Positions 3,994 to 24,483 of a stretch of DNA of 64,000 nt are shown one piece after another. The notes below the pieces were generated by a model. That model was not told where the DNA came from. It did no database searches and was given only the letters and a program-made list of their open reading frames with translations. The DNA lies in NCBI GenBank assembly GCA_002840435.1, contig PHAT01000001.1, positions 118,300-182,299 of the forward strand, written 5' to 3'. The position numbers and the translations under genes are program-made. Source of the stretch: Deltaproteobacteria bacterium HGW-Deltaproteobacteria-6 (GTDB taxonomy: Bacteria > Desulfobacterota > Syntrophia > Syntrophales > Smithellaceae). Within the stretch, counting starts at the first letter, position 1, and every line of letters starts with the position of its first letter.

Positions 3994-4239
3994 CTAAAAC
4001 GGTTCGATCTCATGACGCGCCATATCAAACCATGCTTGCTGCTTCTTGAAGGGGCACCAGGAAGCCCGGCAATAGCGAATCGGATCGTCGGGCGGTATTT
4101 TCATCCTGGGAGCAATGCCTTCCCGATGATTCCGTACCCAGGCTTCGGCTTCCTCCCGGGTATCCACGTATCCGGCGGAATAAGTTGTTTTTCCGCGACA
4201 GTGGACGAAGCCATAGAGGAGTTCAAATTTTTCTTTCAT
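3994..4239 (-). CDS. Small hypothetical protein at the end of the supraoperon
   Basis: An 81-residue reading frame starts at ATG 4239 (MKEKFELLYGFVHCRGKTTY). An in-frame ATG at 4302 would overlap the alcohol dehydrogenase stop codon and add 21 less convincing residues. The composition is protein-like, with aromatic residues, two Cys in RYCRASWCPF and a Trp-rich end. No family is recognised. It is probably co-transcribed with the dehydrogenase upstream. Confidence 0.5.
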   Translation of the reverse strand: MKEKFELLYGFVHCRGKTTYSAGYVDTREEAEAWVRNHREGIAPRMKIPPDDPIRYCRASWCPFKKQQAWFDMARHEIEPF

Positions 4240-4294
4240 GTCAGACTGCCCGCGGAAGCCTCCGTCGAAAGCCCGGTTACCTCGCGCTTCGCCA

Positions 4295-5317
4295 CTAGAA
4301 TTCATCACCGATCCGCAGCAGGACTTTGATGGCCCGGCCCGTGTCGATTCTTTCCCGATAAACGACCGGCAGGCGCTCAAGCGGCTCGTCATCGGAGATG
4401 AGCAATCGCGCGTCCAGTTTTCCTTCCGCCATCCAATTCAGACACTGGATGTTTTCCTCGTGCGTATTGGAAATGGAAGCCGTCAAACGAATTTCCTTGA
4501 AGTTGATGAGATAGGGTGCGGTGATTTCTAAAGGCGAAAAAATCACACTCACCATGCAAACCTCTCCGTTATCCGCCGCCAGAATAAGCGCGCGGTCAAT
4601 ATTGGCCTTGACGCCGGAACATTCAAACGTCTTTTGAAATCCGCCCGGAGCCATGGAGAGGGCCTGCTGATCCGCATCTTTTTCCCGCGGGTCGAAGACA
4701 TGGTCCGCGCCATAGCAAAGGGCGATGTCCCTCTTTTCCTTTACCGGCTCATAGAGCGCAATCGGGCCATAACCGAGAATCTTGAGGATTCTGACGGTGC
4801 AGAGTCCGATGGGGCCGCCTCCCATCACCAGAACGGACCCCGCCTGGTTTGCCGTGCAATGAACGGCGTGCAGGGCGGAGGCAAAGGTTTCCGCAAGAGC
4901 GGCATTGCGGGAATCGACGCCTTCGGGGATGGGAATCAGCATCTGCGGATAGACTTTGACATATTCGGCAAAACCGCCCGGTAAATCGCCGATCCCGGTG
5001 GTTCGCCTGTGAACCCGGCAAAGATGCGGTTTGCCGCCCCGGCAATTGGCGCATTGTCCGCAATAAGTGGGACGAATGCAGACTCTGGTCCCTATGGAAG
5101 GACCGCCGGCCTTTGCGCCTTTTTCGACGACCACACCGCTGATTTCATGTCCGATGATATAACCGTCGGCCAGAAGTCCGCCGGCCACTAAAGAATGATC
5201 GGAACCGCAAAACCCCGTATTGGCCACTTTGACCAATACCTCATCGGCCGTGAGCTGGTAATCGGGAACCTCTTCATAAACCAGTCCCTTGTCTTTTCGA
5301 AATACAACAGCTTTCAT
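4295..5317 (-). CDS. Zn-dependent medium-chain alcohol dehydrogenase
   Basis: The 340-residue MDR enzyme starts at ATG 5317 (MKAVVFRKDKG); an upstream in-frame ATG lacks support. The catalytic zinc region is NTGFCGSDHS (about 35-44) and GHEISGVV (about 57-64). The structural zinc lobe CGQCANCRGGKPHLC is near 85-99, and the NAD-binding GGGPIGL is near 164-170. Such enzymes (threonine, sorbitol or butanediol dehydrogenase-like) oxidise secondary alcohols. In this operon a hydroxy-sulfonate such as isethionate, sulfolactate or dihydroxypropanesulfonate is a reasonable but unproven substrate. The 87-bp gap to the MFS gene contains two short perfect hairpins. Confidence 0.85.
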   Translation of the reverse strand: MKAVVFRKDKGLVYEEVPDYQLTADEVLVKVANTGFCGSDHSLVAGGLLADGYIIGHEISGVVVEKGAKAGGPSIGTRVCIRPTYCGQCANCRGGKPHLCRVHRRTTGIGDLPGGFAEYVKVYPQMLIPIPEGVDSRNAALAETFASALHAVHCTANQAGSVLVMGGGPIGLCTVRILKILGYGPIALYEPVKEKRDIALCYGADHVFDPREKDADQQALSMAPGGFQKTFECSGVKANIDRALILAADNGEVCMVSVIFSPLEITAPYLINFKEIRLTASISNTHEENIQCLNWMAEGKLDARLLISDDEPLERLPVVYRERIDTGRAIKVLLRIGDEF

Positions 5318-5329
5318 AATTTTCACTTT

Positions 5330-5388
5330 CCTAAAAGGACTTTCCTTTTCCGCCTTGCCCCTTGAACCTCGTGCCACCCGCAGGGTGG
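5330..5388 (-). other. Two intercistronic hairpins between permease and dehydrogenase genes
   Basis: CCACCC-GCA-GGGTGG (5374-5388) and AAAAGGA-CTT-TCCTTTT (5333-5349) are perfect short inverted repeats in the mRNA gap. Neither has a U-tract. They could stabilise the upstream message or mark a processing site and uncouple the last genes from the rest. Confidence 0.35.
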
Positions 5389-5404
5389 TGATCCTTCTTT
5401 TGTT

Positions 5405-6703
5405 TTAATCCTCGCATTCCAGCGTAATCTTTTCCACCTTGTTCAGATCTCTTTTGTAAAAGAAAGATCCGGCAAAAAACAACAGGGCGGAGACTACAAG
5501 AAAAACGGGCAGGATCGACATGGCTGTCTGGATACCATAGAGATCGGAGATCTTTCCGATCACAATGGGAGCCAGGGAGGCTCCGAAGAGATTCTGAACA
5601 ACGACGCATACGGAGTAGGAGGTTGCCCGAAGCCCGGGATGGATCACCTCCTGTGTGGCGGTGATGGCGGCCGGGGCAAATGCGGAAGCCAGGATGCCCA
5701 TTCCCAGCAGCGTCAGATATTGTGCCTGCCCTTGAAGGAAGGAAATAGCCGTAAAGATGCAGATGGCATTGAGGGCTGTCGTAATCGCAGGAAACAGCAG
5801 CCGTGCATTGACCCGTTTTTTAAACCACATATCGGCCAGCCATCCCCCCAGCGGCAGGCCGATGAGCGCCAGAATCATGAGCACACTCGTTTTCACGCCC
5901 GCCTCACTGATGGAGACGCCTGTCGTCCGGTGAAAATACGTGGGAAGCCAGAAGATGACCGCATTGTTGGCGAAGATACAGCCGATGAACCCGAGATTGG
6001 TAAAAATCAGAGAAGGGGTGTGAATAAATTCACGGAAAATGTCCATCTTGCTCATCTTGATCTTGCCCGGGCCGGTTTTGCAGGACTCGTCTGTTTTTAT
6101 CAGTTCGACGGTTTTATAATCCTTGACGAAGAAAAAAAGGATGGCCACAACCGCCCCGGGAATGGCCACCAGGCCGAAGGCATGCCGCCAGCCCCAATGG
6201 GTGGCAATGAAACCGCCCAGGCCAATGCCGACGGCGATACCGAGAGGAATGGATATGTTCCACAAGCCCATCATGCGGGAACGTTTTTCCGGAGGGAACA
6301 ACCCGGAGAGCATGGCCGTGCCGGCGGGGGCGTATCCGGCCTCTCCGATCCCGATGGCGGCGCGGGCCGCGAGCAACTGGGGAAAGGTTTTAGTGAAAGC
6401 GCAGACTACCGTCGCGGCAGTCCAGAGAAGGGCCATGACGCCAATGGTCTTTTTCCTGCTCCAGCGATCCACGAGGATCGAAACGGGAAAGACAAAGGCA
6501 ACAATGGACCAGTAAACGACTGACATGAGCAGACCGGACTGCGTGTCCGTGAGGCCCCACTCTTTTTGGATAAAGGGAGCAAGGGAGGTTACGATCGTCC
6601 GATCCATGTAATCGAAGAAATACAGCAGAAACAGCAGCGTGAAGATGTAATAGGCGCTTCGCGTGGATAACTTGTATTCCTTTGGTGCTGTCACGTTATT
6701 CAT
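5405..6703 (-). CDS. MFS permease, organic anion/sulfonate-type candidate
   Basis: The 432-residue protein starts at ATG 6703 (MNNVTAPKEY) behind AAGGAG; the ten upstream in-frame residues are not needed. It has 12 predicted membrane segments in two halves split by a hydrophilic loop near residue 205-225. The MFS motif A-like DRWSRKKTIGVMAL is near 79-92 and the TM1 signature YFFDYMDRTIV near 29-39. It resembles the anion:cation symporter and Spns-like groups that carry small organic acids. Its place after the two ThDP enzymes makes it the likely importer of the substrate of this pathway. Direction and substrate are inferred. Confidence 0.8.
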   Translation of the reverse strand: MNNVTAPKEYKLSTRSAYYIFTLLFLLYFFDYMDRTIVTSLAPFIQKEWGLTDTQSGLLMSVVYWSIVAFVFPVSILVDRWSRKKTIGVMALLWTAATVVCAFTKTFPQLLAARAAIGIGEAGYAPAGTAMLSGLFPPEKRSRMMGLWNISIPLGIAVGIGLGGFIATHWGWRHAFGLVAIPGAVVAILFFFVKDYKTVELIKTDESCKTGPGKIKMSKMDIFREFIHTPSLIFTNLGFIGCIFANNAVIFWLPTYFHRTTGVSISEAGVKTSVLMILALIGLPLGGWLADMWFKKRVNARLLFPAITTALNAICIFTAISFLQGQAQYLTLLGMGILASAFAPAAITATQEVIHPGLRATSYSVCVVVQNLFGASLAPIVIGKISDLYGIQTAMSILPVFLVVSALLFFAGSFFYKRDLNKVEKITLECED

Positions 6704-6779
6704 AGGAACTCCTTGTCTTGTTTTCAGCAACAACCGGTCAAAGGCTGCTACTTAAAGCGACGATGTAAAAAAATGTACC

Positions 6780-8477
6780 TCAATTACATTTATATCCTCC
6801 AAGATTGGCCAGGGCTACACTGCCGGGGCTGATGATGGCCGGATCTACCTTAACATTGATGCAGGCCGTCTTGCCGGAAGCAAAAGCAGCTTCCAACGCC
6901 GGCCGGATATCTTCCGTTTTTTCGACACAGCAGCCGAAACCGCCCAGAACTTCCACCATTTTATGGTAATCGACCCAGCCCAGCTCGGTTCCGTTGGGAA
7001 TGTTATGCCCCATGCGCAACTGCTGGCTGTGCATGATCATCCCCCAGGACTGATCGTTGGCGATGACCACGACAATGGGAAGCTTCTTGCGGATGGCCGT
7101 ATGAAATTCCATAAAGTTAAAGCCGGCCGATCCGTCGCCCATGATGAGGAGAACACGTTTGTCCGGATGTTTTAATTTGGCGGCGTTGGCGTAAGGAATG
7201 CCGACGGCCAGACAGCCGTAAAGGCCGTAATCCAGGTAAGTCCCGCCTTTTTTGACGGTCCTGGTCATGCCCATCCAGGTGGATGTGTCGCCGCCGTCGG
7301 CAACGACAATGTCATCTTCCCGATCCATGAATTTATTGATCTCATTGGCCAGGCGCATGGGATGCATGGGCAGGGTCTCGCATTCCCACATGGCTTTGGC
7401 GTCTTTTTTGCCGCCGTCATGCGCGGCGCGGACGGTTTCCAGCCAGGGCTGATATTGCGCTTTCAGCGTGTCGCCGATTTTTTGTTCATCGAGGTCGCTG
7501 TTGATCTCTTTGAGGAATGATTTGATGTCGCTGACGATGCCGAGATCAATCGTCCGGTTGCGTCCTATCTCATCCGGGGCGATGTCCACCTGAATAAATT
7601 TGGCCGTCGCCGGGAAAATTTCGCCGAAGATATAGAAAAGGCTCAGGCGGCCGCCCAGGAAGAGCACCAGGTCGGTGGTCATGAGCGTGATCATGGCCGA
7701 ACCGGGCCGGATGGCCAGAGAGCCTTCAAAGCAAAGAGGATGCGTGTCCGGGATGACGCCGCGGCCCGCGCCCGCCGTGTAAATCGGAATGCCGATTTTT
7801 TCCACGAATTCGATGATTTCCTTTTCGGCATCCGAATACCAAAGGCCGCTTCCGCCGATCACAATCGGATTCTTGGCCGCCTTGAGCAAATCGACGACCT
7901 TGCGGGTGTTTTCCCGGTCGACGGGCTTGGAGGCGAGCGTGGTGTGGGGTTTCTTGACCATGGACATATCAACCTTGGCGTTCAGAACGTTGCAGGGAAA
8001 TTCCAGGTAAACGGGGCCCGGCCGGCCGCTCATCGCCGCGCGGAAAGCCATGTCAATATATTCGGGAATGCGCTCCGGGATATGGCAGACGAATGCTTTC
8101 TTCACCATGGGTTCGATGACGGGGAGCTGCGTCATGTCCTGAAGGTCCAGCTTTTCCGTGGATTCGGTTCCCACGCAGCCGGCAATCAGGATAACCGGCG
8201 CGTTGGAAAGACGCGCGCTCGCTATACCGGAGAGGGCATTGGTAAACCCCGGTCCCGCCGTGACCATCGCCACCGCCGGTTTGCGGTTCATCCGGGCTGA
8301 GGCTTCGGCCATGAAGACGGCCGCCTGTTCATGGCGCACGTCAAAAATCGTGATGGGTGTGTTTTCAAGATGCTGGTAAATGGGCGTAATATGCCCGCCG
8401 CTCAATGAATAAATGTAATCGACGCCCCGATCAACCAGAGCGTCAGCAACAAGCTTGCCGCCAATAACGTTACTCAT
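6780..8477 (-). CDS. ThDP-dependent enzyme, acetolactate synthase/2-hydroxyacyl-CoA lyase superfamily
   Basis: The 565-residue enzyme starts at ATG 8477 behind AGGAGG; the preceding 56 in-frame residues overlap the SDR gene and are excluded. The N-terminal PYR domain has the proton-relay Glu in RHEQAAVFMAEA (Glu50) and MVTAGPGFTN. The C-terminal PP domain has the Mg-ThDP motif GDGS (447-450) to Asn474 (ANDQSWGM). The fold fits acetolactate synthase, oxalyl-CoA decarboxylase or benzaldehyde lyase-like enzymes; no subfamily signature is decisive. Two-subunit sulfopyruvate decarboxylases are split relatives of this fold. With an Xsc-like enzyme two genes upstream, a decarboxylase making sulfoacetaldehyde is one candidate role. 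Confidence 0.75.
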   Translation of the reverse strand: MSNVIGGKLVADALVDRGVDYIYSLSGGHITPIYQHLENTPITIFDVRHEQAAVFMAEASARMNRKPAVAMVTAGPGFTNALSGIASARLSNAPVILIAGCVGTESTEKLDLQDMTQLPVIEPMVKKAFVCHIPERIPEYIDMAFRAAMSGRPGPVYLEFPCNVLNAKVDMSMVKKPHTTLASKPVDRENTRKVVDLLKAAKNPIVIGGSGLWYSDAEKEIIEFVEKIGIPIYTAGAGRGVIPDTHPLCFEGSLAIRPGSAMITLMTTDLVLFLGGRLSLFYIFGEIFPATAKFIQVDIAPDEIGRNRTIDLGIVSDIKSFLKEINSDLDEQKIGDTLKAQYQPWLETVRAAHDGGKKDAKAMWECETLPMHPMRLANEINKFMDREDDIVVADGGDTSTWMGMTRTVKKGGTYLDYGLYGCLAVGIPYANAAKLKHPDKRVLLIMGDGSAGFNFMEFHTAIRKKLPIVVVIANDQSWGMIMHSQQLRMGHNIPNGTELGWVDYHKMVEVLGGFGCCVEKTEDIRPALEAAFASGKTACINVKVDPAIISPGSVALANLGGYKCN

Positions 8478-8506
8478 AATATGTCCTCCTGAGACAAATT
8501 CATTTT

Positions 8507-9346
8507 TTATAGTTCCATGCACTGACCGCCATCGAGATTGATGGCCTGTCCTGTTATATATCGTGACGCGTCGGAAGCGAGATACGCAACGAGGTCTCCT
8601 GCATCGCGGGGAAGACCGATATATCCCAGGGGAATGGTCTTGCACATTTCCTTTTCCCGTTCTTCAATCGTCGTGCCGAAGAACGAGGCTTCCAGACCGA
8701 AACGCCATTTTTCCAGATCCGTCGCGATCTGTCCCGGGCAGATCGCATTGACGCGGATGCCGTTTCCTCCCAGTTCCTTGGCCATGGTTTTGGTCAGCAT
8801 GATGACGCCTGCCTTGGCCACGGCATAAGCGCTGTTGAAAAGGGGAGGGACCTTGCCCGCCCGTGATGCCGTATTGATGATCGTGGCGGGTTTCCCGGCC
8901 ATCAGGGGAATGACAGCCCGCGAGATGCGGAAGACGGAAAACAGATTCACGTCAATCGTCCGGATCCAGGCCGCTTCGTCATAACTCAGAACCGTGTTGG
9001 GCACGCCGAAGGATGCCCCCGCATTGTTGCAAAGAATGTCAATGTGGTCGAAGGTTCCTTTGATCGTTTCCACCATGGCGCCGATGGCATCGTTGTTGGT
9101 AATATCAACGGCTACCGCCAGTGTCCGGACGCCATACGTTTTGGCAAGCGCTGAAGCGATGGCCTCCATCTCTTCACCCGTGGCGGATTTCAGGGATTCG
9201 CCCGGAACGGGCGGTTTGCCCAGGTCGGCAATGATAATGTTGCAGCCGCAGGAGGCCAGTTTTTCCGCAATCGCGTAGCCGATGCCGGTTTTTTTACCGG
9301 AGCCGGTGACCATGGCTGTTTTTCCTTCCAGGTCTTTATAAATCAT
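8507..9346 (-). CDS. Short-chain dehydrogenase/reductase
   Basis: The 279-residue SDR starts at ATG 9346 behind AAAGGAGG, overlapping the last codons of the xsc-like gene by 11 bp. It has the cofactor motif [12 protein letters not shown] (about 15-26), CNNAG (about 97-101), catalytic Ser in NTASRAG, and the active-site YAVAK (Tyr/Lys) near 173-177. The end DGGQCMEL is a typical SDR tail. Isethionate and sulfolactate-type dehydrogenases include SDR members, so oxidation of a hydroxy-sulfonate is plausible from context. The sequence alone only supports an NAD(P)-dependent alcohol/ketone oxidoreductase. Confidence 0.85.
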
Positions 9347-11096
9347 CGATGCCTCCTTTGTACCAGTTATGATGATCCAGATGGGCATACTTGGGCAAAA
9401 AGCGCGTCGGCAGAGCCAGTGCATCTTTCCGGAAAGGCGGCGCCAGTTGTTTGCCGTCCACCAGGAATTCCAGAACAGTGGGTTTGCGACTCTTCAAACA
9501 GGAATCGAAAGCCTCCCGGATATCTTCGGGCCGGCTGACCTGCATACTGTTGGCGCCCATCGCCTTGGCGACAGGAACAAAGCTTTTCGGCGTGGGGATA
9601 TCGACGCCGACGAAACGGTTGTTGTAAAAGTCCACCTGGTTTTTGGCTTCCGCGCCCCACCACATGTTCCGGAAAACACAGGCCACGACGGGCAGGTTAT
9701 GCTCCACCGCCGTGCTGACTTCGTGAAGGCTCATGCCCCAGGCGCCGTCGCCGATGATCGCAATGACCGGCGCTTTGGGTTTGGCAATCTGGGCCCCCAG
9801 GGCCGCGGGATACGCAAAACCCGTATTGCCGAAAGTGAGCGCCGCGATATGCCGTCGTGACTGGTTAAATTTGAGGTAACTGTTGGCTGTCGAGGCGACG
9901 TTTCCGATATCCGTGCTCACAATCGCATCGTCCGGAAGCGCTTTGGATATCTCCAGTAAAACGCGGCGGGGATTCATCGGATTGCCGTCGACCATGGCTA
10001 AATCAACAATCTCTTTTTCCCATTTCTTTTTTTCCCTCGCGACCGCGGCCAGGCGTTTGTCATCAGGCTTGCGTTTCCCGTCGGCGGATTTCAGGCGCTT
10101 CAGAATTTCCATCGTGGCTTCCTTTGCATCGCCGATGATGCCGACCTCAATGGGGTGGGTTCTCGCGATGTGCTTCGGATTGATGTCGATCTGAATAATT
10201 TTGGCATTATCCGGGAAGTAATTGATGTCGTACTGGGGCAGGGTCCCGAAGACGGAAAGTCTTGTCCCGATAGCCAGCATGACATCAGCCTTGGCCAGCG
10301 TCTTCATGGCTGCCTTGGAACCCATGTAGCCGATGGGGCCGACGGACAAGGGATGATTCCCGTAAAAGGCATCATTGTGCAGATAGGTGACCGCGACAGG
10401 CGCGGTCAGGTGCTCGGCAATCGCCTTGACAATATCCAGTGCATCGGCATCAACCACACCGCGCCCGGAAACAATGACGGGGTTCTTCGCTTTGGACAGA
10501 AGCTCGGCTGCGCGATCCAGCTGTTCATGAGAACCGCAGCCCCGGGCATCCACCCGGTATTGAGATGGTTTCAGAATCGTCTCTTCCAGCTCGCCATAGA
10601 AATAGTCACGGGGAATGTCATACAAAACAGCGCCCCGGTCCGCATAGGCAATGCGGAAGGCCGTTCTCAGGCAATCGGCGGCCCGTTTCGGATGAGGAAC
10701 GCGGACGACGGCTTTGGTGATGGATTTGAAGACGGACATCTGGTCGCATTCCTGAAAGCCGTCCCAGCCGATGGTCGGCGTTCCGGCGGAAGGAGAGATG
10801 ATCACCAGCGGCGTATGACCCATGTTGGCTGCCGCCACCGATGTGACCATATTGGTGATGCCGGGGCCGTTCTGACCTGTTACGACGCCGCACCGTCCCG
10901 ACACGCGGCAATAGGCGTCTTCCATGTGCGCTGCGCTTTGTTCATGACGGACGGGAATGAATTTGATTCCCGCCGCGGGGAAGAGATCGAGCATATCCAT
11001 AAATGCCGATCCCACGATGCCGCAAACATGATCCACGCCTTCGGCCAGCAGGGTTTCCACGATTGCTTCGCTGGGTGTCATCTTTACTTTTTTCAT
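9336..11096 (-). CDS. xsc: Sulfoacetaldehyde acetyltransferase (Xsc)-like ThDP enzyme
   Basis: The 586-residue protein starts at ATG 11096 behind GGGAGG, 30 bp after ackA. It has the catalytic Glu (RHEQ, Glu52), TGQNGPGIT (73-81), GFQECDQM (113-120), HNDAF (240-244), [14 protein letters not shown] (251-264), ThDP motif GDG (449-451) to Asn477, FRNMWWGAE (475-483), RFVG and PFRKDAL (554-560). These blocks are recalled features of Xsc from taurine degraders and are not general acetolactate synthase motifs. Xsc converts sulfoacetaldehyde plus phosphate into acetyl phosphate and sulfite. Direct neighbours ackA and dsr genes would use exactly these products. The N-terminal third is more divergent from the recalled Xsc sequences, so another substrate cannot be excluded. 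Confidence 0.72.
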
Positions 11097-11126
11097 TTTT
11101 AAACCTCCCATGTATCAATTCGTAAG

Positions 11127-12350
11127 TTATTTTAAATTGAAAACGCTCTTCTGATTATTTTGCAAAACCGCCTGCGTTTCCCGGGCGATCATCTTTTCTT
11201 CATTTGTCGGAACCACAAAAACTTTTACCTTTGTCGAAGGTCGTGAGATTTCACCTTCGACGGCATTCTCCGTGTTTTTATTGTCATCCAGATAAATCCC
11301 CAGCCAGGAAAGAAAGGCACAGATCCGCAGACGCATCTGCGGCGAGTGTTCGCCGATCCCGGCGGTAAAAACCAGGACGTCGAGTCCGCCAGCGGCCGGA
11401 ATCAGAGAACCGATCCCCCTGGCTACACTGTATGCGTATACGGTCAGAGCCAGCCGGGCCCGTTCATTGCCTGAGCCTGCCTCTTTTTCGAGGTCCCGAA
11501 AATCGGGGGAAATGCCGGAGATGCCGAAAACGCCGCTTTCACGATTCAGCATGTCCATCACCTGTGCCAGGGACTTTCCTTCCTTTTGGGCCAGGAAAGA
11601 AACGACCGCCGGATCAATATCACCGCACCTGGTTGCCATGACGAGACCGGAAAGAGGCGTAAAGCCCATGGATGTGTCGAACGATTTTCCCTGTGCCACG
11701 GCGCAGAGGCTGGAACCGGCGCCCAGATGGCAGGTAATGATTTTCAAATCTTCGATATTTTTTTCGAGAATTTCCGCCGTCCGGTACGCGACATACCGGT
11801 GGGAAATGCCGTGGAAGCCATATCGGCGCACATGGTCCTGTGCGTAATAACGATAAGGGATCGCGTAGGTATAGGCATAAGGCGGCATGGTCTGATGAAA
11901 TGCCGTGTCGAAGACCGCTACCTGCGGTACACCCGGCATGAGTCTGGTGCAGACATCAATCCCCATCAGGTTCGGCGGATTATGCAGCGGCGCCATGTTT
12001 TTGGTGCCCTCAAGGGTTTGCCGTATGGCCGGATCGACGGCGACCGGGGTGCGGAAATGCTCCCCGCCGTGGACGACGCGATGACCGACGCCGCTGATTT
12101 CGTTGATATCCGTCAGGATGCCCCGCCTGCCGTCCACAAGATGGGTCAGAAGGGCATGCACCGCTTCATGATGATTGCGCAGAGGCATTTCACAAAGCAG
12201 GGTTTCGTGCCTCCGTGCATCATGTTGAAACACGGCATCGGCGAGGCCGATGCGGTCCGCCTGACCCCGGGCCAGAACCTCATTTGTTTCCATCTCGAAG
12301 AGTTTGTATTTGAGCGATGAGCTGCCGCAATTCAGGACCAGTATCTTCAT
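11127..12350 (-). CDS. ackA: Acetate kinase
   Basis: The 407-residue protein matches the acetate kinase length and carries LNCGSSSLKYKLFE (about 5-18), GHRVVHGGEHF (about 88-98), FDTAFHQTMP (about 147-156), the CHLGAGSSLCA phosphate loop and FTAGIGEHSP. It transfers phosphate from acetyl phosphate to ADP, giving acetate and ATP. The start ATG overlaps the dsrP stop (ATGA), so translation is coupled to the sulfite-reducing membrane complex. No phosphotransacetylase is next to it, which suits a pathway that makes acetyl phosphate directly, as Xsc does. Confidence 0.95.
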   Translation of the reverse strand: MKILVLNCGSSSLKYKLFEMETNEVLARGQADRIGLADAVFQHDARRHETLLCEMPLRNHHEAVHALLTHLVDGRRGILTDINEISGVGHRVVHGGEHFRTPVAVDPAIRQTLEGTKNMAPLHNPPNLMGIDVCTRLMPGVPQVAVFDTAFHQTMPPYAYTYAIPYRYYAQDHVRRYGFHGISHRYVAYRTAEILEKNIEDLKIITCHLGAGSSLCAVAQGKSFDTSMGFTPLSGLVMATRCGDIDPAVVSFLAQKEGKSLAQVMDMLNRESGVFGISGISPDFRDLEKEAGSGNERARLALTVYAYSVARGIGSLIPAAGGLDVLVFTAGIGEHSPQMRLRICAFLSWLGIYLDDNKNTENAVEGEISRPSTKVKVFVVPTNEEKMIARETQAVLQNNQKSVFNLK

Positions 12351-14309: not shown

Positions 14310-14710
14310 TTATTTACCTCCCCGGGAACAATATGGCAGCCAAAACAGGTCGGCCTGGCGCCCAGATAATTATGACAACGATCGCAGAACTGTTCTTTGT
14401 TGCTGTGACACTTCAGGCACGTGCCGGTCAGGCTTTTTTCAAACGTGCGGCCGTCTTTCGCCGTGTAAAGACGATTCCCCTCGCGGACGGCTTCATCACG
14501 CCAGGCATTAAGCAGTTTCATGTGGCTTTTGCGCATGGACGGCGTATCCTCCACGCAGCGCTTTTCCTGCAATTGGGCAATGGCGGGCGTATCCAGGCTG
14601 AGGGCCGGCGGTCGGGATGTTTTCCCTTTGCCGTACCAAAAGGGAAAGGTGATCAGCGCCGCAAAGATCACGAGTCCTAATGTTATCATGCACCACTTCT
14701 GTTGTTTCAT
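14306..14710 (-). CDS. dsrJ: DsrJ, membrane-anchored triheme cytochrome c
   Basis: The 134-residue protein has an uncleaved N-terminal membrane anchor (about 8-26) and three haem motifs: CLKCH (98-102), CDRCH (109-113) and CFGCH (122-126). The segment RCVEDTPSMR with Cys52 is the conserved DsrJ region that supplies an unusual His/Cys haem ligand in studied homologues. It sits in the periplasm as part of DsrMKJOP. The gap to dsrK is 28 bp. Confidence 0.95.
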   Translation of the reverse strand: MKQQKWCMITLGLVIFAALITFPFWYGKGKTSRPPALSLDTPAIAQLQEKRCVEDTPSMRKSHMKLLNAWRDEAVREGNRLYTAKDGRTFEKSLTGTCLKCHSNKEQFCDRCHNYLGARPTCFGCHIVPGEVNK

Positions 14711-17350: not shown

Positions 17351-18942
17351 TCCCACTGAATAAAAGGTTTCTTGAGGTCGGTCATGGCATTGACAATCAG
17401 CTCCACAAGCCCGCCGTAGAAAATGCCCGACTTTTCCCATACACCATAATAGTTAAACAGCTCGCGATACTGCCCCTTGCAGTTGGAGCAGGGCGCACAC
17501 ACATACTTTTTGATCTCCGGTGATGGAACATCCCCGAAGGCCTCCAGGGTTTGTTTGAGTTTCATCCGTCCGGAAATCGAGGAGCGCCAGTCCGGAAAGT
17601 TGGTCGACTGGGTGACGGCAAATCCGCTTCCGCCGCCGCAGCAGTAGTTCTCAACGCCGTGGGGCGTCATTTCCCGGAACTGCGGAGCTATTTTTCGCAA
17701 AATTCTTCTCTGGGGTTCAACAATGCCCATCAGCCTCACCATGTTGCACGGATCATGCAGCGTGACGGGAAAATCATTCCGGCTGGGATCCAGTTTGATT
17801 TTGCCGCTCATGACGATTTCTTCCATCAGCGGGATGGAGCTTTCCCGGGGGATGTTGAGGTCTCTGGTCAGGATCCGGTCGGCAATGACAATCATAGCCT
17901 TGTGGGCATGTCCGCATTCGCCCAGGGAAATCTTCTTCACCCCCAGATTCTTGGCCGCCTGAGCGTGCAGCAAAGCGATGCGGGCAAACTGGACATCGTC
18001 GTACCAGACGCCGTAATTGACCGCGTCGTAGCCGGCGATTTCACTGGAGAGCGTCCAGTCGATGCCGGCTGCGTCAAACAGGATGGCAAAGGCCTCCAGG
18101 TTTTCCGGCCAGGCGATGAATTCGCCCGCATTATGCAGCAGCAATATGTCGGCGCCTTTTTTGTCCACGGGGATTTTAATTTTCTTCCCGGTTTTTTCTT
18201 CAATTTCTTCTTCGATAAATTCGAGGATATCCGTCAGCGCCGGAGGCGTCATGCCGGTGCTGGAGCCCACCTTGAGCTGCTGCACGGTGCCTTTTTCATG
18301 GATTTCTTTCGGGGCAATGCCCATTTGCTGGCTGAAAAGCTTGCGGATTTCCCGGCTGATCAGGGCATTGTCGACTCCCAGCGGGCAAACCTGGGCGCAG
18401 CGCCGGCAAAGGGTGCAGCGATAAGCGAGTTCCCCCAGGCGGGCAAGCGTCTGCCAGTTGAGATCGATATCGGTTCCCCTGAATTTTCTCAAAAGGGGAT
18501 GGCTCTTTTTGATGTATTTGCCGATGATGCGGCGCAGGATTTCGGGACGCATGGTCGGGCGGTAAATTTCCTCGCGGCCGGAGGCGACATAGGCCGGGCA
18601 CATATCGGAGCAAATCTGACATTTGACGCAATAATCGAGGCTGTGGACGAGCGGCTGCAAAAATGTCCAGTTATCACCGGAGGTGAACAGTTTGGCGAGG
18701 CCTGCCAGAAATTTTTCGATGAAAGCGCGTTCTTCTTCGTGACTTGCCGGGGGGGCAAGCCCGAGGATAGAAATGCCGTCCAGAGAAGCGTCCATGCGCG
18801 ATCTTTGTTCAGGGGTCAGCGCCTTGATGGGTTTATCCAATTTGTCATAAGGCGCAGGCAGAGGCATCAGGTTCGCCGGGTTGATAACGGCGAGTTGATC
18901 TCCGGATTGGCTGAAATCAGAGATGGTCATCTTCTTTTTCAT
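17341..18942 (-). CDS. Second DsrK/TmcB-like CCG-domain iron-sulfur protein
   Basis: The 533-residue HdrD-like protein has two [4Fe-4S] motifs, CVKCQICSDMC (105-115) and CTLCRRCAQVC (176-186). Its CCG region looks complete: HDPCNMVRLMG, YCCGGGSGF and CAPCSNCKGQ near the C-terminus. That ending resembles TmcB/HmcF-type subunits more than canonical DsrK. It overlaps the cytochrome b gene upstream by 4 bp and the true dsrM downstream by 10 bp, so both MK modules are translated in series. It probably handles a disulfide or trisulfide partner, with DsrC encoded two genes upstream as the obvious candidate. Confidence 0.88.
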   Translation of the reverse strand: MKKKMTISDFSQSGDQLAVINPANLMPLPAPYDKLDKPIKALTPEQRSRMDASLDGISILGLAPPASHEEERAFIEKFLAGLAKLFTSGDNWTFLQPLVHSLDYCVKCQICSDMCPAYVASGREEIYRPTMRPEILRRIIGKYIKKSHPLLRKFRGTDIDLNWQTLARLGELAYRCTLCRRCAQVCPLGVDNALISREIRKLFSQQMGIAPKEIHEKGTVQQLKVGSSTGMTPPALTDILEFIEEEIEEKTGKKIKIPVDKKGADILLLHNAGEFIAWPENLEAFAILFDAAGIDWTLSSEIAGYDAVNYGVWYDDVQFARIALLHAQAAKNLGVKKISLGECGHAHKAMIVIADRILTRDLNIPRESSIPLMEEIVMSGKIKLDPSRNDFPVTLHDPCNMVRLMGIVEPQRRILRKIAPQFREMTPHGVENYCCGGGSGFAVTQSTNFPDWRSSISGRMKLKQTLEAFGDVPSPEIKKYVCAPCSNCKGQYRELFNYYGVWEKSGIFYGGLVELIVNAMTDLKKPFIQWEWH

Positions 18943-19889
18943 GGGTTGTCCTTTTTCTTTGGATTCGGAGAATCCAGCCGGGTTGCCGCTTCCGCCCAGG
19001 TGGCGCCTGATGGAATATGTTTTCCCTCCCAGGAAATCTTCTGGGACAGCAGGCCGGAAATCTGCTTTTCGAGTTTTGATCCCCGTCTGTTCGGTTCGTC
19101 ATCCCAGCGGATGCGGTACAGGGCGAAAATTCGCGTTATATAATGCAGCGAGCGGGTGAACGGCAGATAGATGAGAAAGAGATCAAACAGAATAATGTGC
19201 AGCACTGTCATCGGATGAAGATGCGGCGGCGAAAGCGTGATGAGGCCCAGCCAGTAAGTCCGGTATTCGGCAAGCGTCGGATCGAGAACAATCCAGGCAT
19301 ACAGGCCGCTTAAATAAACGAGAAAGAAGAAGGCGTAGTTGAAAAAATTAAACGGCGTGGCGTAAGTCCTGAGCCCCCGATCAGCCAGGCGGACAATCGG
19401 CATGCCGATGCAGCCGAAGGTGCCGCCGATGAAGGCGATGCCGCCCGTTGCCAGCAGGAGATAGTAAAAGATCTGCCCCGCCGGCTGTTCCGACGCAGCC
19501 GAAATATTTATTCCGAAAACGATGGCGCAGGCGGCAAAGAAGCAGAGAATATGAAAGGTGATAATGAAAATGAAACCGAGGTGCCAAGGCAGCAGAACCG
19601 CCCAATAGAAGCGGTTGCGCTTGAAATATTCGCCCATGTAAAAATTATCTTTGAGCGCGTAGAAAAGGCTTCGCAAGCGGTGCTTGGGCCTGGGCTTTGT
19701 CCACCACTCGGGCTGTTCGTAGTATGAACCCCCGTACTGGTAATGTTCCTCATGAATCACCGGATAAAGATCCCAGCGGATATGAGGCGGCATGGCAAGC
19801 CATGCCCGGGCTTTAATGGTGTACATGGCGACGATGAAAACATACGCCACATATGTCAAAACGATGACCAGAGTTTCCATTTCATCCAT
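18939..19889 (-). CDS. Second DsrM/TmcC-like cytochrome b
   Basis: The NarI-like protein is 316 residues from ATG 19889. The internal ATG 19880 (METLVIVLTY) has better spacing to AAGGA and may be the true start. It has about five to six membrane segments. The N-terminal loop with HIRWDLYPVIHEE and YGGSYYEQPEWW is a feature of TmcC-type b cytochromes. Haem ligand candidates lie in LLPWHLGFIFIITFHIL. It pairs with the following dsrK-like gene and would connect menaquinol to it. The 129-bp gap to dsrC has no clear terminator. Confidence 0.85.
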   Translation of the reverse strand: MDEMETLVIVLTYVAYVFIVAMYTIKARAWLAMPPHIRWDLYPVIHEEHYQYGGSYYEQPEWWTKPRPKHRLRSLFYALKDNFYMGEYFKRNRFYWAVLLPWHLGFIFIITFHILCFFAACAIVFGINISAASEQPAGQIFYYLLLATGGIAFIGGTFGCIGMPIVRLADRGLRTYATPFNFFNYAFFFLVYLSGLYAWIVLDPTLAEYRTYWLGLITLSPPHLHPMTVLHIILFDLFLIYLPFTRSLHYITRIFALYRIRWDDEPNRRGSKLEKQISGLLSQKISWEGKHIPSGATWAEAATRLDSPNPKKKDNP

Positions 19890-20018
19890 TTCCTTTTATC
19901 TTACGGACTGTTCAGAACACCCGGCGCGCCGTAAAAATTCGCCTCGTGAGTCATGCCGGGGATTACACCGGGAAATGACTGGCGATTGGCAAAGCGGCAG
20001 GAGGTTCCGGCAACTTGT

Positions 20019-20339
20019 CTAAACGCAACCCGTAGGCTTCGAGAGGCCGGCCAGTTTGCAGGCTCCTTTGGCAGGTCCCGTGGGGAAAAGTTCGTAGAGC
20101 TTTTTCATGTCGATCCCCAGATCTTTGCAGATTTTCCGGATCATGGGGGCAATGCCGAACTGCTGATAGTAATTGCGCAGGTAATTGATCACTTTCCAAT
20201 GTTCTTCGGTCAACTTGCCTTCGATATCTTCCACATGGGCATAAGCTTCTGCAAATTCTTCGTTCCACTTGTCGAGTTCCTGAAGAAACCCGTCTTCATC
20301 CACTTCATAAATTTTACCTGCCAATTCGATTTGCGGCAT
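20019..20339 (-). CDS. dsrC: DsrC, sulfur-carrier protein of sulfite reduction
   Basis: The 106-residue protein has the DsrC/TusE fold length and the flexible C-terminal arm with both redox cysteines, Cys94 (KGACKLAG) and the penultimate Cys105 (PTGCV), 11 residues apart. Both are needed for the DsrC trisulfide formed by DsrAB, so this is a functional DsrC and not a TusE or RspA relative. AGGAGG precedes the ATG. In many sulfate reducers dsrC is unlinked from dsrAB; here it is between dsrN and the first MK pair. Confidence 0.96.
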   Translation of the reverse strand: MPQIELAGKIYEVDEDGFLQELDKWNEEFAEAYAHVEDIEGKLTEEHWKVINYLRNYYQQFGIAPMIRKICKDLGIDMKKLYELFPTGPAKGACKLAGLSKPTGCV

Positions 20340-20425
20340 ATTGAGAACCTCCTGAAAATATTTTTATTCAATCATCAATTTCTGTGTGCGAACGTCCCGA
20401 TCTTGAGGGCGCGCCGGTATGCTTA

Positions 20426-21868
20426 TTAAAATCCTCCTGCATCACGCTTCCGGAGGGAAGGAGAAATGATTTTACTTTGTCTTTCCGCCCGATGCTGTCT
20501 GGCTTTGCCAATGATCGCCTGCGCCCACCCGGCTGCGCCGAGCGCATGCAGATGCGTGAATCCGGCAAAAATATTATACCGGCACAGGCCTTCCCGCTTA
20601 CCGTCCATCCCCGTTCCCCGGAGAACGCGGCACGCTGTGAAGCTTTCACTTTCGTGCAGGGTCAGGACCCGGCAGTAATGAAACTCATGCCCGGTGACCT
20701 TTGTGCCCACGGGGAAGAAGGGGTTTTGCCGATCAACTTCCAGGGTGATGTAGCCATGCCCCTGTGGCCGGTGCTCCATGCTGAAGGAAACCGGCAGCGC
20801 GCCGGACATGGGATAGTGTGCATCACCGATGGTCAGTGATTCTCCCAGGTAGATGAATCCTCCGCATTCCGCATAAATCGGCAGGCCCCGCTCAGCGGCT
20901 GCTTTCAGGGAAAGACGGAAGGACGCGTTTTCGGCAAGGCGCCCGGCTTGCGTTTCAGGGAAGCCTCCGCCGATGTATAAGGCATCCACGTCCGGGAGGC
21001 TCTTTTCCGCAAGCGCGCTGATCTCCACAATTTTGGCGCCCCGATCACTCAGGGCCTCCAGATTTTCGGAATAATAAAACTGAAAGGCGCTATCTTTGAT
21101 CACGCCGATGGTGATTGGCTCATTACCCCTCTCGTCCTGTTCGGGATTGGGGAAGGCATCCACACTCCAGGGCGCCGCACTTTCGGCAACCGCCAGCAGG
21201 TTCGGAATGTCAAGGCAGTCTTCGGCAATCATTCCCGCTCTGTCCAGCGCATGCTGGGCAGCATCATGTTCCGGAGGAGGAATTAATCCCAGGTGCCTCT
21301 GCGTAAAGGGAAGATCGGTCATGCGCGGTACGGTGCCCAGAACCGGAAGACCGGCATATTCTTCGATGGCTTGACGGATGACAGTCGCATGGCGGCTGCC
21401 GCTCACCCGGCTGAGGATGACGCCCCGGATGTTGAGTTGGGGGTCAAGATTCCTGCAGCCCAGGACCATTGCCGCTGCAGTGCGCGTGACTTTATCGCAG
21501 TCGACAACCAGAATCACTGGCGCATTAAGAAGCTTGGCAAGCTCTCCCGTGCTGAACTCGCCTGCGGCATTAACGCCGTCGAAGAGTCCCCGGTTGCCTT
21601 CGATAATCGAAACAGCGCCTGCTGCCGCATGGCGTGAAAACGATCGGACGGTCTGTTCGGTGCCCATGAGAAATGTGTCCAGGTTGTAACAGGGCCGTGA
21701 TGCCGCAAGCGCAAGCCACGCCGCATCAATATAGTCCGGTCCCTTCTTAAAAGGGACAACCGGGATGCCCCGCTTTTGCAGGGCAACGGTCAGAGCGACC
21801 GAAAGGGTTGTTTTTCCCGCGCCGCCCCGGAGGGCGGCCATAATCAGACGTGGACAGGATTGGTTCAT
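20426..21868 (-). CDS. dsrN: DsrN, cobyrinate a,c-diamide synthase-like (sirohaem amidase)
   Basis: The 480-residue CbiA/CobB family protein has a P-loop GGAGKTTLS (about 15-23) and a C-terminal class-I-like glutamine amidotransferase domain with YAECGGFIYLGES (nucleophile Cys) and GHEFHYCRV. In dsr operons it is called DsrN and is thought to amidate sirohaem for DsrAB. It follows dsrD by 14 bp or so and precedes dsrC by 86 bp. A role in cobalamin synthesis is possible, but no other cobalamin genes are nearby. Confidence 0.9.
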   Translation of the reverse strand: MNQSCPRLIMAALRGGAGKTTLSVALTVALQKRGIPVVPFKKGPDYIDAAWLALAASRPCYNLDTFLMGTEQTVRSFSRHAAAGAVSIIEGNRGLFDGVNAAGEFSTGELAKLLNAPVILVVDCDKVTRTAAAMVLGCRNLDPQLNIRGVILSRVSGSRHATVIRQAIEEYAGLPVLGTVPRMTDLPFTQRHLGLIPPPEHDAAQHALDRAGMIAEDCLDIPNLLAVAESAAPWSVDAFPNPEQDERGNEPITIGVIKDSAFQFYYSENLEALSDRGAKIVEISALAEKSLPDVDALYIGGGFPETQAGRLAENASFRLSLKAAAERGLPIYAECGGFIYLGESLTIGDAHYPMSGALPVSFSMEHRPQGHGYITLEVDRQNPFFPVGTKVTGHEFHYCRVLTLHESESFTACRVLRGTGMDGKREGLCRYNIFAGFTHLHALGAAGWAQAIIGKARQHRAERQSKIISPSLRKRDAGGF

Positions 21869-21882
21869 CTTTCAATACCTGA

Positions 21883-22119
21883 TTAAGAACAGGATTCCTC
21901 CTTCGGGAAGAATTCAGCCAGGATGAGGTAAGTAGAACTTCCGCTCGACCAGTATTTCAAAACTTCCTCATCGAGCAGCACTTTTACGGCATCCTGAACG
22001 GCGTGCCGGTCTTCATCGGGCAGCCATTTGGTGACGTCGCGGATGTAAAACATCTTCTTGTCACCCCTGGATTTTTCATGGAAAAGGTCTACGATCTTTT
22101 TCTTCAGCTCGTCACTCAT
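21883..22119 (-). CDS. dsrD: DsrD, small winged-helix activator of DsrAB
   Basis: The 78-residue protein starts at ATG 22119 (MSDELKKKIVDLF), two bases after the dsrB stop; GGGGGTGA within the dsrB end serves as ribosome site. An upstream in-frame ATG (22131) would overlap dsrB. The winged-helix fold and position after dsrB are diagnostic. DsrD is found with reductive, not oxidative, DsrAB and stimulates sulfite reduction. Confidence 0.94.
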   Translation of the reverse strand: MSDELKKKIVDLFHEKSRGDKKMFYIRDVTKWLPDEDRHAVQDAVKVLLDEEVLKYWSSGSSTYLILAEFFPKEESCS

Positions 22120-22121
22120 GT

Positions 22122-23183
22122 TCACCCCCATTTGAACTGTGTCGATGTCCGGAATGTTTCCGTGGCCATATCAAAGTCATCGATATGCTTGTCCGTGAAG
22201 GGAATGCCGGTCAGCGTAAAGAACCTCTCCCAGCCAACGCGTTCGATCCATTCCCCGACGCGTTCGTGCTTGCGCGCATGGGTTGCATAGACCTCGATGA
22301 TATTCTTGACCGCATCAACCACTTCAGGCCAGCGCGGCGGGTTGTTGGGGAGGAAGGGAATGGCCAGCTTGGAGAATTTGGGAGCGCTCCGGGCATTGGA
22401 AACTTTACCTCCGACCCAGATTGAAATTCCGTCGTTTTCGGGATCGGCAATCGGCAGGGCCGGACAAACGGTGTAGCAGTTGCCGCAATACATGCACTTC
22501 TCCGGATTGACGGTGACGGTTTTGTTCTTCATGTCGCCGCGAATCGCGCCCGTGGGGCAGGAGGCAACGGTGGAAGGAATTTCACAAATGTTCGGCACGC
22601 GTGTGTTATCCGGGATGGGAACGGTGCGGTGAATTCCCAGAATGGCGATGTCCGAGCAATGCACGGCGCCGCACATATTCAGGCAGCAGGCCAGGGCAAT
22701 CCGTACGTGGTTGGGCAGGGTCGCCGTTACGAAATGTTCATAGATCTCATCCATCAGGGCCTTGACGGGACCGGATGCGTCGGTGGCCGGCGTGTGGCAG
22801 TGGACCCAGCCCTGGGTATGGACGATATTCGAGATGGCATGCCCTGTGCCGCCGACCGGGTAATTGCGTTTGGCCAGTTCCGCAATCAGGGGCTCGACTT
22901 TGTCCTTATCGTCCAGGAGGAATTCGATATTGTGGCGGCTGGTGAAGCGCAGATAGCCGTCGCAGAACTGATCCGCCATGTCGCAGATTTCCCGGATGTG
23001 TTCCGTAGAAACAAGCCTGGGGGAGCCTGCGCGCACAGTGTAGAGTGCCTCTCCCGATTCCGCGATGTGCATCAGCACACCCGGTTTGAGAATTTCATGA
23101 TAACGCCACTTCCCGTAATTTCTTGCGATGACGGGCGGCAGCATGGTTTTATAATCAGGGGGTCCGATATCTGTTTTAGCCAT
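22122..23183 (-). CDS. dsrB: Dissimilatory sulfite reductase beta subunit
   Basis: The 353-residue subunit has the sirohaem-[4Fe-4S] cysteines in [16 protein letters not shown] and a ferredoxin insert with ASCPTGAI and [16 protein letters not shown]. The end (STQFKW) matches family C-termini. With DsrA it reduces sulfite by four electrons to a DsrC-bound sulfur. It begins one base after dsrA, behind AAAGGAGG, and is followed directly by dsrD. All expected cofactor cysteines seem present, so this subunit should hold the active sirohaem. Confidence 0.97.
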
Positions 23184-23184
23184 T

Positions 23185-24372
23185 TTACTTTACCTCCTTT
23201 TTGATTTCTTCGGGCCAGAAGAAGACATAGGGATTGGTCCGCGGCGCCTTGACCATTTGCGGAACGGCCGGCAGGCCAACGGCCCTGAGGAATACCCTCA
23301 TGCCCAGACGTTTGATTAACTCACCCAGGCGTTCCCGGGATTTGCCGTATTCATCCCACCAGTCCTGGATGCGTTCGATTAAATCCTTGAGTTCCGTGTA
23401 AGGCGGCTCCATCTTCATAAAAGGCACAATGACCCAGGAAAGAAGCGCTCCCTGTAAAATGGGCGCCTTGCCGCCGATGAGGATGGTTGCGCCTCTTTCT
23501 TTGCCGGGGCGCAGGGCTTTCGGCATGAGGTTGATGCAGTGCATGCAACGGGTGCAGTCTTCATCGTAAATCTTTAATTCTTTGCCGTTCCATTCCATGC
23601 ACTTCGTCGGACAAAGGTCGCAGACTTCCTTTTGGATGTCGATGGCCGGCGCATAGGCCAGAACTTCCTTCTGATCAATTTGAATGTTGTCTTTCCAGGT
23701 GCCGATGATGGACAGGTCGGAGCGCGCGATGGATGCCACACAGTCATTGGAACAGGCAGCGACTTTAATCTTGAACTTGTAGGGGAACATGGGGCGGTGA
23801 ATCTTATCCTGGTAACTCATGGTGATGTTATAGCAGATATCCAGGCTGTCGACGCAGGCCCATTCGCATCGGCCGGGTCCGACACAGGCGGAAGGCGTAC
23901 GCAGGGCCGATCCGGAGCCGCCGAGGTCAAAACCCGCATCGGAAAGATCGTCAAAACAGGACTGGAGATGCTCGGTTCTTGTGCCCAGCAGAATGACATC
24001 TCCCGTTGCGCCGTGCATGTTGGTGAGGCCGCTGCCGTGCTTGTCCCAGACATCGCAGAGTTTGCGCAGCGCATCCGTTTTGTAGAACCAGCCGGTAGGA
24101 TGATTAACGCGCATCGTGTGAAAAGCCTGGACATTCGGGAAAAGATCCGGACGATCTGAATAGCGCCCGATGACACCGGCGCCGTAACCCTTGACGCCGA
24201 CAATACCTCCATGTTTCCAGTGGCCGATTTTATCCTTGTAGGATAGCTCCAGTTGATGGAGCAGGTCTTTGGCCATGGGATTTTTCTCCGCCGCTTGCTT
24301 CATGTCTTTCACAAAGCTGGGCCATTTGCCCCCTTCCAGTTCATCGAGCAGGGGTGTGTCTGATTTCGCCAT
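23185..24372 (-). CDS. dsrA: Dissimilatory sulfite reductase alpha subunit
   Basis: The 395-residue subunit starts at ATG 24372 ([20 protein letters not shown]) behind AGGAGG; the 18-residue upstream extension runs into the leader dyad and is rejected. It has the cofactor motif [14 protein letters not shown] and [15 protein letters not shown], and the ferredoxin Cys pattern in LCPTKCMEW and [12 protein letters not shown]. The order dsrABD, the motif type and the presence of dsrD indicate the reductive bacterial form used in sulfite or sulfate respiration. It is the first gene of the 20-kb run. Confidence 0.97.
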
Positions 24373-24420
24373 GATATTTGCCTCCTTTTCTAACCATTCT
24401 TCCGGCTGGATGTCGGTTGA

Positions 24421-24442
24421 ATGCATTATGTGTAGAATGCAT
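24421..24442. promoter_or_regulatory. Leader dyad ATGCATT-N8-AATGCAT in the dsrA 5' UTR
   Basis: A perfect 7-bp inverted repeat with 8-nt spacer sits just downstream of the predicted start point and about 50 bp before dsrA. It could be an operator that blocks elongation or a small RNA hairpin. No regulator is assigned. Confidence 0.5.
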
Positions 24443-24454
24443 CACTTTTACTGA

Positions 24455-24483
24455 ATGGTACTCAGTTTATTAAAGCGTGTCAA
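24455..24483 (-). promoter_or_regulatory. Sigma-70 type promoter of the dsr supraoperon
   Basis: The minus strand reads TTGACA (24483-24478), a 17-bp spacer and TACCAT (24460-24455). The predicted start near 24448 gives a leader of about 76 nt. A CTCTC-TAAT-GAGAG dyad (24491-24504) lies just upstream of the -35, and the leader dyad lies just downstream, so both sides carry candidate operator sites. Confidence 0.65.

Follow-up and report, generated by a model that had tools for sequence, protein, structure and literature searches.

A putative sulfonate-respiration operon with dsr, ackA and xsc genes and a candidate thiamine diphosphate-dependent lyase in a Smithellaceae genome

Background

The dsrAB genes of dissimilatory sulfite reductase commonly serve as markers for sulfate reduction. 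From what source, then, would sulfite be supplied in a bacterium of a syntroph lineage that carries a full dsr set and in which AprA was not detected? The question is raised by a window of 64,000 nucleotides from Deltaproteobacteria bacterium HGW-Deltaproteobacteria-6 (Syntrophales; Smithellaceae; contig PHAT01000001.1, positions 118,300 to 182,299), where one gene run joins dsr genes with ackA (acetate kinase), xsc (sulfoacetaldehyde acetyltransferase) and genes for a second thiamine diphosphate (ThDP)-dependent enzyme (hereafter ThDP2), a short-chain dehydrogenase/reductase (SDR), a major facilitator superfamily (MFS) transporter and a zinc-dependent alcohol dehydrogenase (Zn-ADH). From sulfoacetaldehyde and phosphate, Xsc forms acetyl phosphate and sulfite; the former is used by AckA to make ATP, and the latter is reduced to sulfide by DsrAB-DsrC with DsrMKJOP. 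Judged from its gene content, the run is very probably an operon for sulfonate respiration, and it points to organosulfonates as the likely source of sulfite. Sulfite derived from sulfonates would explain dsr genes in bacteria seemingly unable to reduce sulfate. As for the lineage, one uncultured DsrAB lineage has been assigned to Syntrophales in a review (PMC10591310), and three earlier Smithella genomes are described, in the passage cited here, as lacking dsrAB and dsrMKJOP (PMC4208337).

Gene run and identity of Xsc

Nineteen minus-strand genes, from dsrA through a small open reading frame (ORF), form one run at 3994-24426 (Table 1), in agreement with an earlier note on this DNA, which had counted eighteen or nineteen tightly spaced and partly overlapping genes behind one promoter. 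Seventeen of the 18 intergenic gaps are shorter than 90 bp (range, -100 to 129; the value of -100 hinges on the chosen dsrM start, and the small-ORF start was taken as 4236 for this count). Several genes overlap, and the dsrP stop and the ackA start share 4 bp, as that note had also said. The promoter-like site upstream of dsrA is the sole extragenic one on the minus strand within 3200-25300; it is a consensus match only, of a class whose sites were rarer than in shuffled sequence. No terminator-like site was found in the minus-strand gaps from dsrA to the small ORF.

The xsc product, described before as Xsc-like, is a true Xsc by the curated model and the tree, with its activity predicted. 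It exceeded the TIGR03457 cut-off (850.8 versus 676.4 bits), and the acetolactate synthase models stayed below their own cut-offs; the same model gave loose matches in all of 14 control genomes and a score above cut-off in none of them. In the maximum likelihood tree, 30 Xsc sequences formed one clade with 100/100 support, which includes the Caballeronia and Rhodococcus enzymes and excludes three ThDP paralogues encoded in the same genome (their branches are long; the two that were scanned are acetolactate-synthase-like). Equivalents of Glu510 and Gln125, given as Xsc positions in PMC13327070, were present in 26/26 correctly extracted sequences (4/30 wrong-frame sequences were excluded). An acetolactate synthase identity, for which the earlier note had proposed a phylogenetic check, is rejected on the model scores and the tree. 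Note that, in two annotated plasmid records, a phosphate acetyltransferase gene follows xsc (a third record is unannotated there), whereas in the window ackA precedes xsc.

Source of sulfite

The reductive Dsr set is complete, with DsrAB, a two-cysteine DsrC, DsrD and DsrMKJOP all present; DsrM, DsrK, DsrJ, DsrO and DsrP each scored above the curated threshold of their model. AprA was not found in the genome (99% complete) at E <= 1e-80. Among 149 genomes sampled from the order, aprA occurred in two (one above cut-off), neither of which is among the 22 Xsc-positive genomes. On these AprA searches, the usual route from sulfate to sulfite seems to be missing; sat was not searched.

Other desulfonation enzymes were also sought. 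The genome has no SuyB domain, and its best match to ComE (TIGR03846) scored 39.7 bits against a cut-off of 221.5. Its single long glycyl-radical enzyme scored 347-362 bits with two sulfopropanediol models, the cut-offs of which are 1000; a second glycyl-radical match is a 59-position fragment. Desulfonation of dihydroxypropanesulfonate (DHPS) by a glycyl-radical enzyme or SuyAB was thus not supported by the genome searches. Among the genes of the run there is no aminotransferase, islAB or CoA-enzyme gene, and no SlcD, ComDE or SuyAB; tpa, sarD and islAB are absent from the run, with no genome-wide search by name having been made.

Conservation of the gene run

Relatives were examined in the order sample and in a phylum sample of 395 genomes, and order genomes were scored as Xsc-positive at E <= 1e-150 (20 of the 22 also exceeded the TIGR03457 cut-off); the Fisher p values for co-occurrence are uncorrected for kinship. 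Relatives that carry names are mostly Syntrophaceae, Smithella or other deltaproteobacterial metagenome-assembled genomes. Twenty Xsc loci were fetched from other genomes of the order. In 14 of these 20, xsc is preceded on its own strand by dsrP, either immediately, via ackA or across one additional gene, so the run is not a chance layout. No dsrP-xsc run was seen in five (L036, L038, L042, L045 and L047), and one contig was too short (L032). The same dsrMKJOP-ackA-xsc run recurs beyond the order in G532 (locus L212), which belongs to another family; this is the only one of 20 fetched phylum Xsc loci where dsr adjoins xsc.

These data also bear on whether the dsr and xsc parts serve separate functions, with Dsr acting on external sulfite or thiosulfate and Xsc-AckA being fermentative as in Desulfonispora. 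Such a division would suit the four Xsc-positive order genomes that lack dsrB, as well as the five order loci and 19 of 20 phylum loci where no dsr gene stands beside xsc. It fits poorly with the 4-bp dsrP-ackA overlap, the short gaps free of terminator-like sites, the gene order kept in 14/20 loci and the co-occurrence of Xsc with dsrB (18/22 Xsc-positive genomes versus 41/149 in the order; p 1e-8), and we regard it as very improbable.

Several variants were seen in these loci. Six of the 14 encode a protein of some 565 residues between dsrP and ackA or xsc (L029:5735-7432, L030, L031, L034, L039:12288-13979 and L040). These proteins form one cluster, and the member scanned combines a CoA-disulfide reductase with a rhodanese domain; it is a possible persulfide or trisulfide reductase. 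In one genome (G031; L199:5945-7303), xsc is split in two between dsrP and the SDR gene, either a decayed gene or an assembly error. In genus g116 (family f60, perhaps Desulfovibrionaceae), an Xsc 60-63% identical to that of the window is encoded away from dsr in the five loci examined. Four loci of two other families of the phylum (L210:3629-5377, L211, L216:5070-6785 and L217) carry a different ThDP enzyme near xsc, accompanied by an MFS transporter and a second SDR, or by ackA; of two such enzymes scanned, one matched only acetolactate-synthase-type models below cut-off and the other matched nothing at E <= 1e-80.

ThDP2 and its neighbours

The earlier note had taken a C2 sulfonate as the substrate and had regarded the single transcription unit as not described before. 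Its linkage of Xsc with AckA (not Pta) and a complete Dsr set holds, these being conserved together; a C2 substrate explains Xsc alone, and the coupling itself is known in Taurinivorans muris (according to the text of PMC10507020). Our searches of open-licence PMC papers turned up no account of the dsr-ackA-xsc run, nor of a ThDP-dependent lyase of DHPS. The earlier view thus appears, on partial support, right about Xsc-AckA-Dsr and incomplete about the substrate, with the upstream chemistry (ThDP2, SDR, ADH and MFS) missed. Because these four are conserved and a C2 sulfonate accounts for Xsc alone, a larger, probably C3, hydroxysulfonate is suggested.

Each of the 22 Xsc-positive order genomes has ThDP2, versus 51/149 overall (Fisher p 1.4e-12). 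In the phylum, 31 genomes have Xsc, 24 have ThDP2 and 13 have both (p 4e-10). This association would be left unexplained if taurine, isethionate or sulfoacetate were imported and a single dehydrogenase, either SDR or ADH, converted it to sulfoacetaldehyde, ThDP2 being secondary. SDR-type sulfoacetaldehyde reductases are known, and the model scores of Xsc, AckA and Dsr are as good for this C2 scheme, for which Taurinivorans muris, respiring taurine through Xsc-AckA-Dsr, is a precedent (as reported in PMC10507020). The run, however, has no aminotransferase, islAB or CoA-enzyme gene, and several distant genomes instead have xsc beside a class-III aminotransferase, which we read as the taurine type. 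We consider a C2-sulfonate operon unlikely.

As for its own class, the best solved relatives of the ThDP2 profile were benzaldehyde lyase and the designed formolase. His29, Glu50 and Gln113 are in register with benzaldehyde lyase and were kept in 8/8 ThDP2 sequences, and Ile481 occupies the position where AcHACL (Glu493) and Xsc carry a proton-shuttling Glu. In the single-sequence search, by contrast, the 2-hydroxyacyl-CoA lyase (HACL)/oxalyl-CoA decarboxylase group came top with 278.8 bits versus 264 for benzaldehyde lyase. The nearest NCBIfam model was PRK05858 (410.6 bits, below its cut-off of 587), followed by 2-hydroxyacyl-CoA lyase (338.8 bits). ThDP2 is probably a C-C lyase that supplies Xsc.

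Two other assignments of ThDP2 were weighed against the same data. A 2-hydroxyacyl-CoA lyase would split sulfolactyl-CoA into sulfoacetaldehyde and formyl-CoA, which agrees with the top group of the single-sequence search and the second NCBIfam model. Against it stand benzaldehyde lyase as the top profile match, Ile at the AcHACL Glu493 position and the absence from the run of genes for a CoA ligase, a CoA-transferase or formyl-CoA metabolism, and it appears very unlikely. In a sulfolactate operon, the SDR would make sulfopyruvate and ThDP2 would be a one-chain sulfopyruvate decarboxylase that replaces ComDE and feeds Xsc. The sequence sulfolactate, sulfopyruvate, sulfoacetaldehyde, Xsc is established (see PMC11382572), and no ComE above cut-off was found in the genome. 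Nevertheless, ThDP2 has the lyase set His29/Gln113 with Ile481 and lacks the Glu/His pair of pyruvate decarboxylases (as described in PMC13327070), no SlcC- or ComC-type dehydrogenase was recognized in the run, and four more electrons would be required from elsewhere; this scheme is quite unlikely, a little less so than the acyl-CoA one.

The neighbourhood of ThDP2 was counted in 79 loci, only 28 of which extended for 5 kb in either direction. A related SDR adjoins ThDP2 in 66/79, and a second dehydrogenase is found in 49/79 (Zn-ADH in 20, a second SDR in 29, both together in none), a pattern that fits interchangeable second dehydrogenases. The transporters vary (MFS, SBF, DASS and GltS). An aldehyde ferredoxin oxidoreductase (AOR)-family gene occurs in 9/79 loci and xsc in 19/79, never together. 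This exclusion would fit replacement of Xsc by AOR in acting on sulfoacetaldehyde in relatives; it may be a lineage effect alone and was not used as proof.

The SDR-ThDP2 modules with AOR and without xsc are L070, L071, L072, L076, L093, L124, L114, L123 and L059, and 7/9 have a DASS anion symporter. A pyridoxal phosphate enzyme resembling sphingosine-1-phosphate (S1P) lyase was also seen (L102:4066-5433, L091:6237-7688, L193:12626-14062, L122 and L114), adjoining either ThDP2/SDR or xsc with a class-III aminotransferase. The L102 member matched an S1P lyase of the PDB at 397 bits, and the others were assigned by cluster or tblastn. Taurine might be its product, formed either from cysteinolate, together with formaldehyde, or from cysteate.

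Proposed pathway

The reading that we favour, and hold to be probable on the sequence evidence, is an operon that would take up a C3 hydroxysulfonate and process it through ThDP2, Xsc, AckA and Dsr. The MFS transporter would bring in the sulfonate, for which DHPS is the most likely candidate, although we put our confidence in DHPS itself somewhat below even. The SDR and the Zn-ADH would oxidize the two DHPS enantiomers to sulfolactaldehyde or 3-hydroxy-2-oxopropanesulfonate. Cleavage by ThDP2 of such products, of the HpsO/HpsP type, is conceivable because either is a 2-hydroxy-carbonyl compound, and a retro-acyloin reaction on either would yield sulfoacetaldehyde and formaldehyde. Xsc would then desulfonate sulfoacetaldehyde, AckA would make ATP, and Dsr would take sulfite to sulfide. 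Oxidation of formaldehyde to CO2, plus the first oxidation, would provide six electrons, exactly the need of sulfite reduction to sulfide; the sum would be C3H8O5S -> CH3COOH + CO2 + H2S + H2O, with no outside electrons. A new route of this kind for DHPS or a similar C3 sulfonate, redox-closed and free of glycyl radicals, with two enantiomer-specific dehydrogenases, a ThDP2 lyase and Xsc, the lyase feeding AOR in place of Xsc in relatives, is a tentative proposal, in which we place slightly less trust than in DHPS as the substrate.

A number of observations weigh against this pathway. As for co-occurrence, the four Xsc-positive order genomes without detected dsrB are G069, G096, G127 and G138. 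ThDP2 is not tied to Xsc, because it occurs without Xsc in 29 of the 51 ThDP2-positive order genomes (the one with the split xsc, G031, among them) and, also at E <= 1e-150 for Xsc, in 27 of the 49 genomes behind the chosen ThDP2 loci; in the phylum, 18 of the 31 Xsc-positive genomes have no ThDP2. The AlphaFold model of ThDP2 was of low quality, its mean pLDDT being 64, and was not used. By sequence comparison, the window SDR is not a close relative of HpsO, and the ADH seems not to be one of HpsP: against solved structures the Zn-ADH found DsHpsP (8WWD) at rank 17 of 187 (82.9 bits), and for the SDR, RpHpsO (8WWF) was outside the best 60 of 707 matches. At the same Ser-Tyr-Lys spacing, the SDR has Ala two residues past the catalytic Ser, where RpHpsO has Gln147, reported as an R-DHPS-binding residue (PMC11131964). 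No formaldehyde-oxidizing gene was recognized in the operon, and no HpsN (histidinol-dehydrogenase-like) is encoded in the run, a genome-wide search for the latter not having been made.

Three AOR-family matches lie elsewhere in the genome and could oxidize formaldehyde. Plasmid searches with the window ADH, MFS and SDR gave matches all below 60% identity, and two regions inspected showed no clear hps cluster. Three of the genomes without dsrB, all of genus g3 (G069, G127 and G138; loci L036, L038 and L042), have both ThDP2 and Xsc, with ackA in 2/3 loci.

If the pathway is true, a sulfonate alone would serve as both electron donor and acceptor, yielding acetate, CO2, sulfide and ATP. If ThDP2 cleaves a compound derived from DHPS, a sulfonate of algae and plants that is abundant worldwide would gain an unrecognized anaerobic route to sulfide.

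Other features of the window

Table 1. Features of the gene run and its borders in the window (functions marked as proposed or inferred are predictions)
Feature	Position	Strand	Evidence and remarks
Sigma-70-like promoter	24455..24483	-	TTGACA-17-TACCAT, 10/12 matches, consensus only; upstream of dsrA
dsrA	23185..24426	-	TIGR02064, 567 bits (cut-off 392.85)
dsrB	22122..23183	-	TIGR02066, 526.5 bits (cut-off 341.5)
dsrD, mark of the reductive type	21883..22131	-	Pfam PF08679, 56 bits
cobB/dsrN, cobyrinate (sirohaem) amidase	20426..21868	-	NF002204, 431 bits (cut-off 254)
dsrC, two C-terminal Cys (C-x10-C)	20019..20339	-	TIGR03342, 117 bits (cut-off 53.5)
dsrM2, second DsrM-like membrane subunit	18939..19889	-	PF02665, 25.7 bits, barely above cut-off; place conserved
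dsrK2, second DsrK-like FeS subunit	17341..18942	-	DsrK model, 338.8 bits, below cut-off of 400
dsrM	16346..17440	-	NF038037, 451.7 bits
dsrK	14739..16343	-	NF045796, 742.6 bits
dsrJ	14306..14710	-	NF038038, 159 bits
dsrO	13548..14309	-	NF045797, 300.8 bits
dsrP	12347..13540	-	NF045798, 488 bits
ackA, acetate kinase	11127..12350	-	TIGR00016, 463.5 bits (cut-off 293.4)
xsc, sulfoacetaldehyde acetyltransferase	9336..11096	-	TIGR03457 and tree (see text)
SDR dehydrogenase, proposed first sulfonate oxidation	8507..9346	-	Family scans; place beside ThDP2 in relatives
ThDP2, benzaldehyde-lyase/formolase-like, proposed C-C lyase giving sulfoacetaldehyde	6780..8477	-	Profile and residues
MFS transporter, proposed sulfonate uptake	5405..6733	-	Family scans
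Zn-ADH, proposed second, other-enantiomer dehydrogenase	4295..5317	-	Family scans; start inferred
Small conserved protein, about 80 aa	3994..4239	-	No family; place conserved; start 4239 inferred
TetR-family regulator	3262..3885	-	108 bp downstream of run; kept with run in many relatives

The G+C content is 0.55 in the run and 0.49 on either side, and the former exceeds that of all 39 20-kb windows tested to the right; together with the same run in another family (G532), the contrast makes horizontal transfer of 3994-24426 possible. The dsrM2/dsrK2 pair sits between dsrC and dsrMKJOP. In many relatives the identity of DsrM2 is as low as about 30%, so that it may have different partners or electron sources. 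On the left the run is bordered by a PF03601 (UPF0324) transporter gene (2146-3246, plus strand). Upstream of dsrA, a minus-strand ORF (24726-25247) looks by eye like a truncated PF03601 relative and had no Pfam match. A TetR operator over the promoter (ACTGA-N7-TCAGT) was considered and rejected: it was present in only 1/157 loci (many do not cover the site), and the number of sites in the window is close to that expected by chance (2 at up to one mismatch versus 0.9 expected).

Comparison with known systems

Desulfonispora thiosulfatigenes ferments taurine via Xsc as an anaerobe and is not known to have a linked dsr operon; it shares Xsc with the window, where xsc is linked to dsr. Taurinivorans muris uses Xsc, AckA and DsrAB-DsrC for taurine, which enters the route via Tpa, and TRAP transporters have been proposed for it (as given in PMC10507020). 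Xsc desulfonation, ATP formation by AckA and sulfite reduction by Dsr are the same in the window; the differences from its Tpa-Ald-Xsc route are that the aminotransferase is missing, that SDR, ThDP2, MFS and ADH are present and that dsr and xsc stand in one run. Bilophila is reported to respire DHPS and isethionate via the glycyl-radical sulfite-lyases HpsG and IslA (PMC8397734). There, too, an organosulfonate supplies sulfite to Dsr, whereas no HpsG-like enzyme was found in the genome studied here, its glycyl-radical enzyme falling far below the sulfopropanediol cut-offs. Acidobacteria with sulfite reduction only are described in PMC6018796 as having suyAB and, in the passage cited, no xsc.

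As for DHPS, the HpsG, HpfG, SuyAB and SauS/IseG routes are given in a review from 2026 on the catabolism of this compound and of sulfoquinovose, the text of which names neither formaldehyde nor Xsc (PMC12890257). The hpsRNOUP cluster of Cupriavidus pinatubonensis encodes the SDR HpsO, the Zn-ADH HpsP and the MFS transporter HpsU; HpsO and HpsP are reported to yield sulfolactaldehyde, the older view being that they act at C2 (PMC11382572 and PMC11131964). The window shares this trio of classes with the hpsRNOUP-suyAB cluster, and Xsc as the final step with the alphaproteobacterial HpsNOP-SlcD-ComDE-Xsc route. ThDP2 has His29, Glu50 and Gln113 in common with benzaldehyde lyase and differs from it by Gly28 and Ile481; in the window run it takes the place that HpsN, SlcD, ComDE and SuyAB have in the hps systems.

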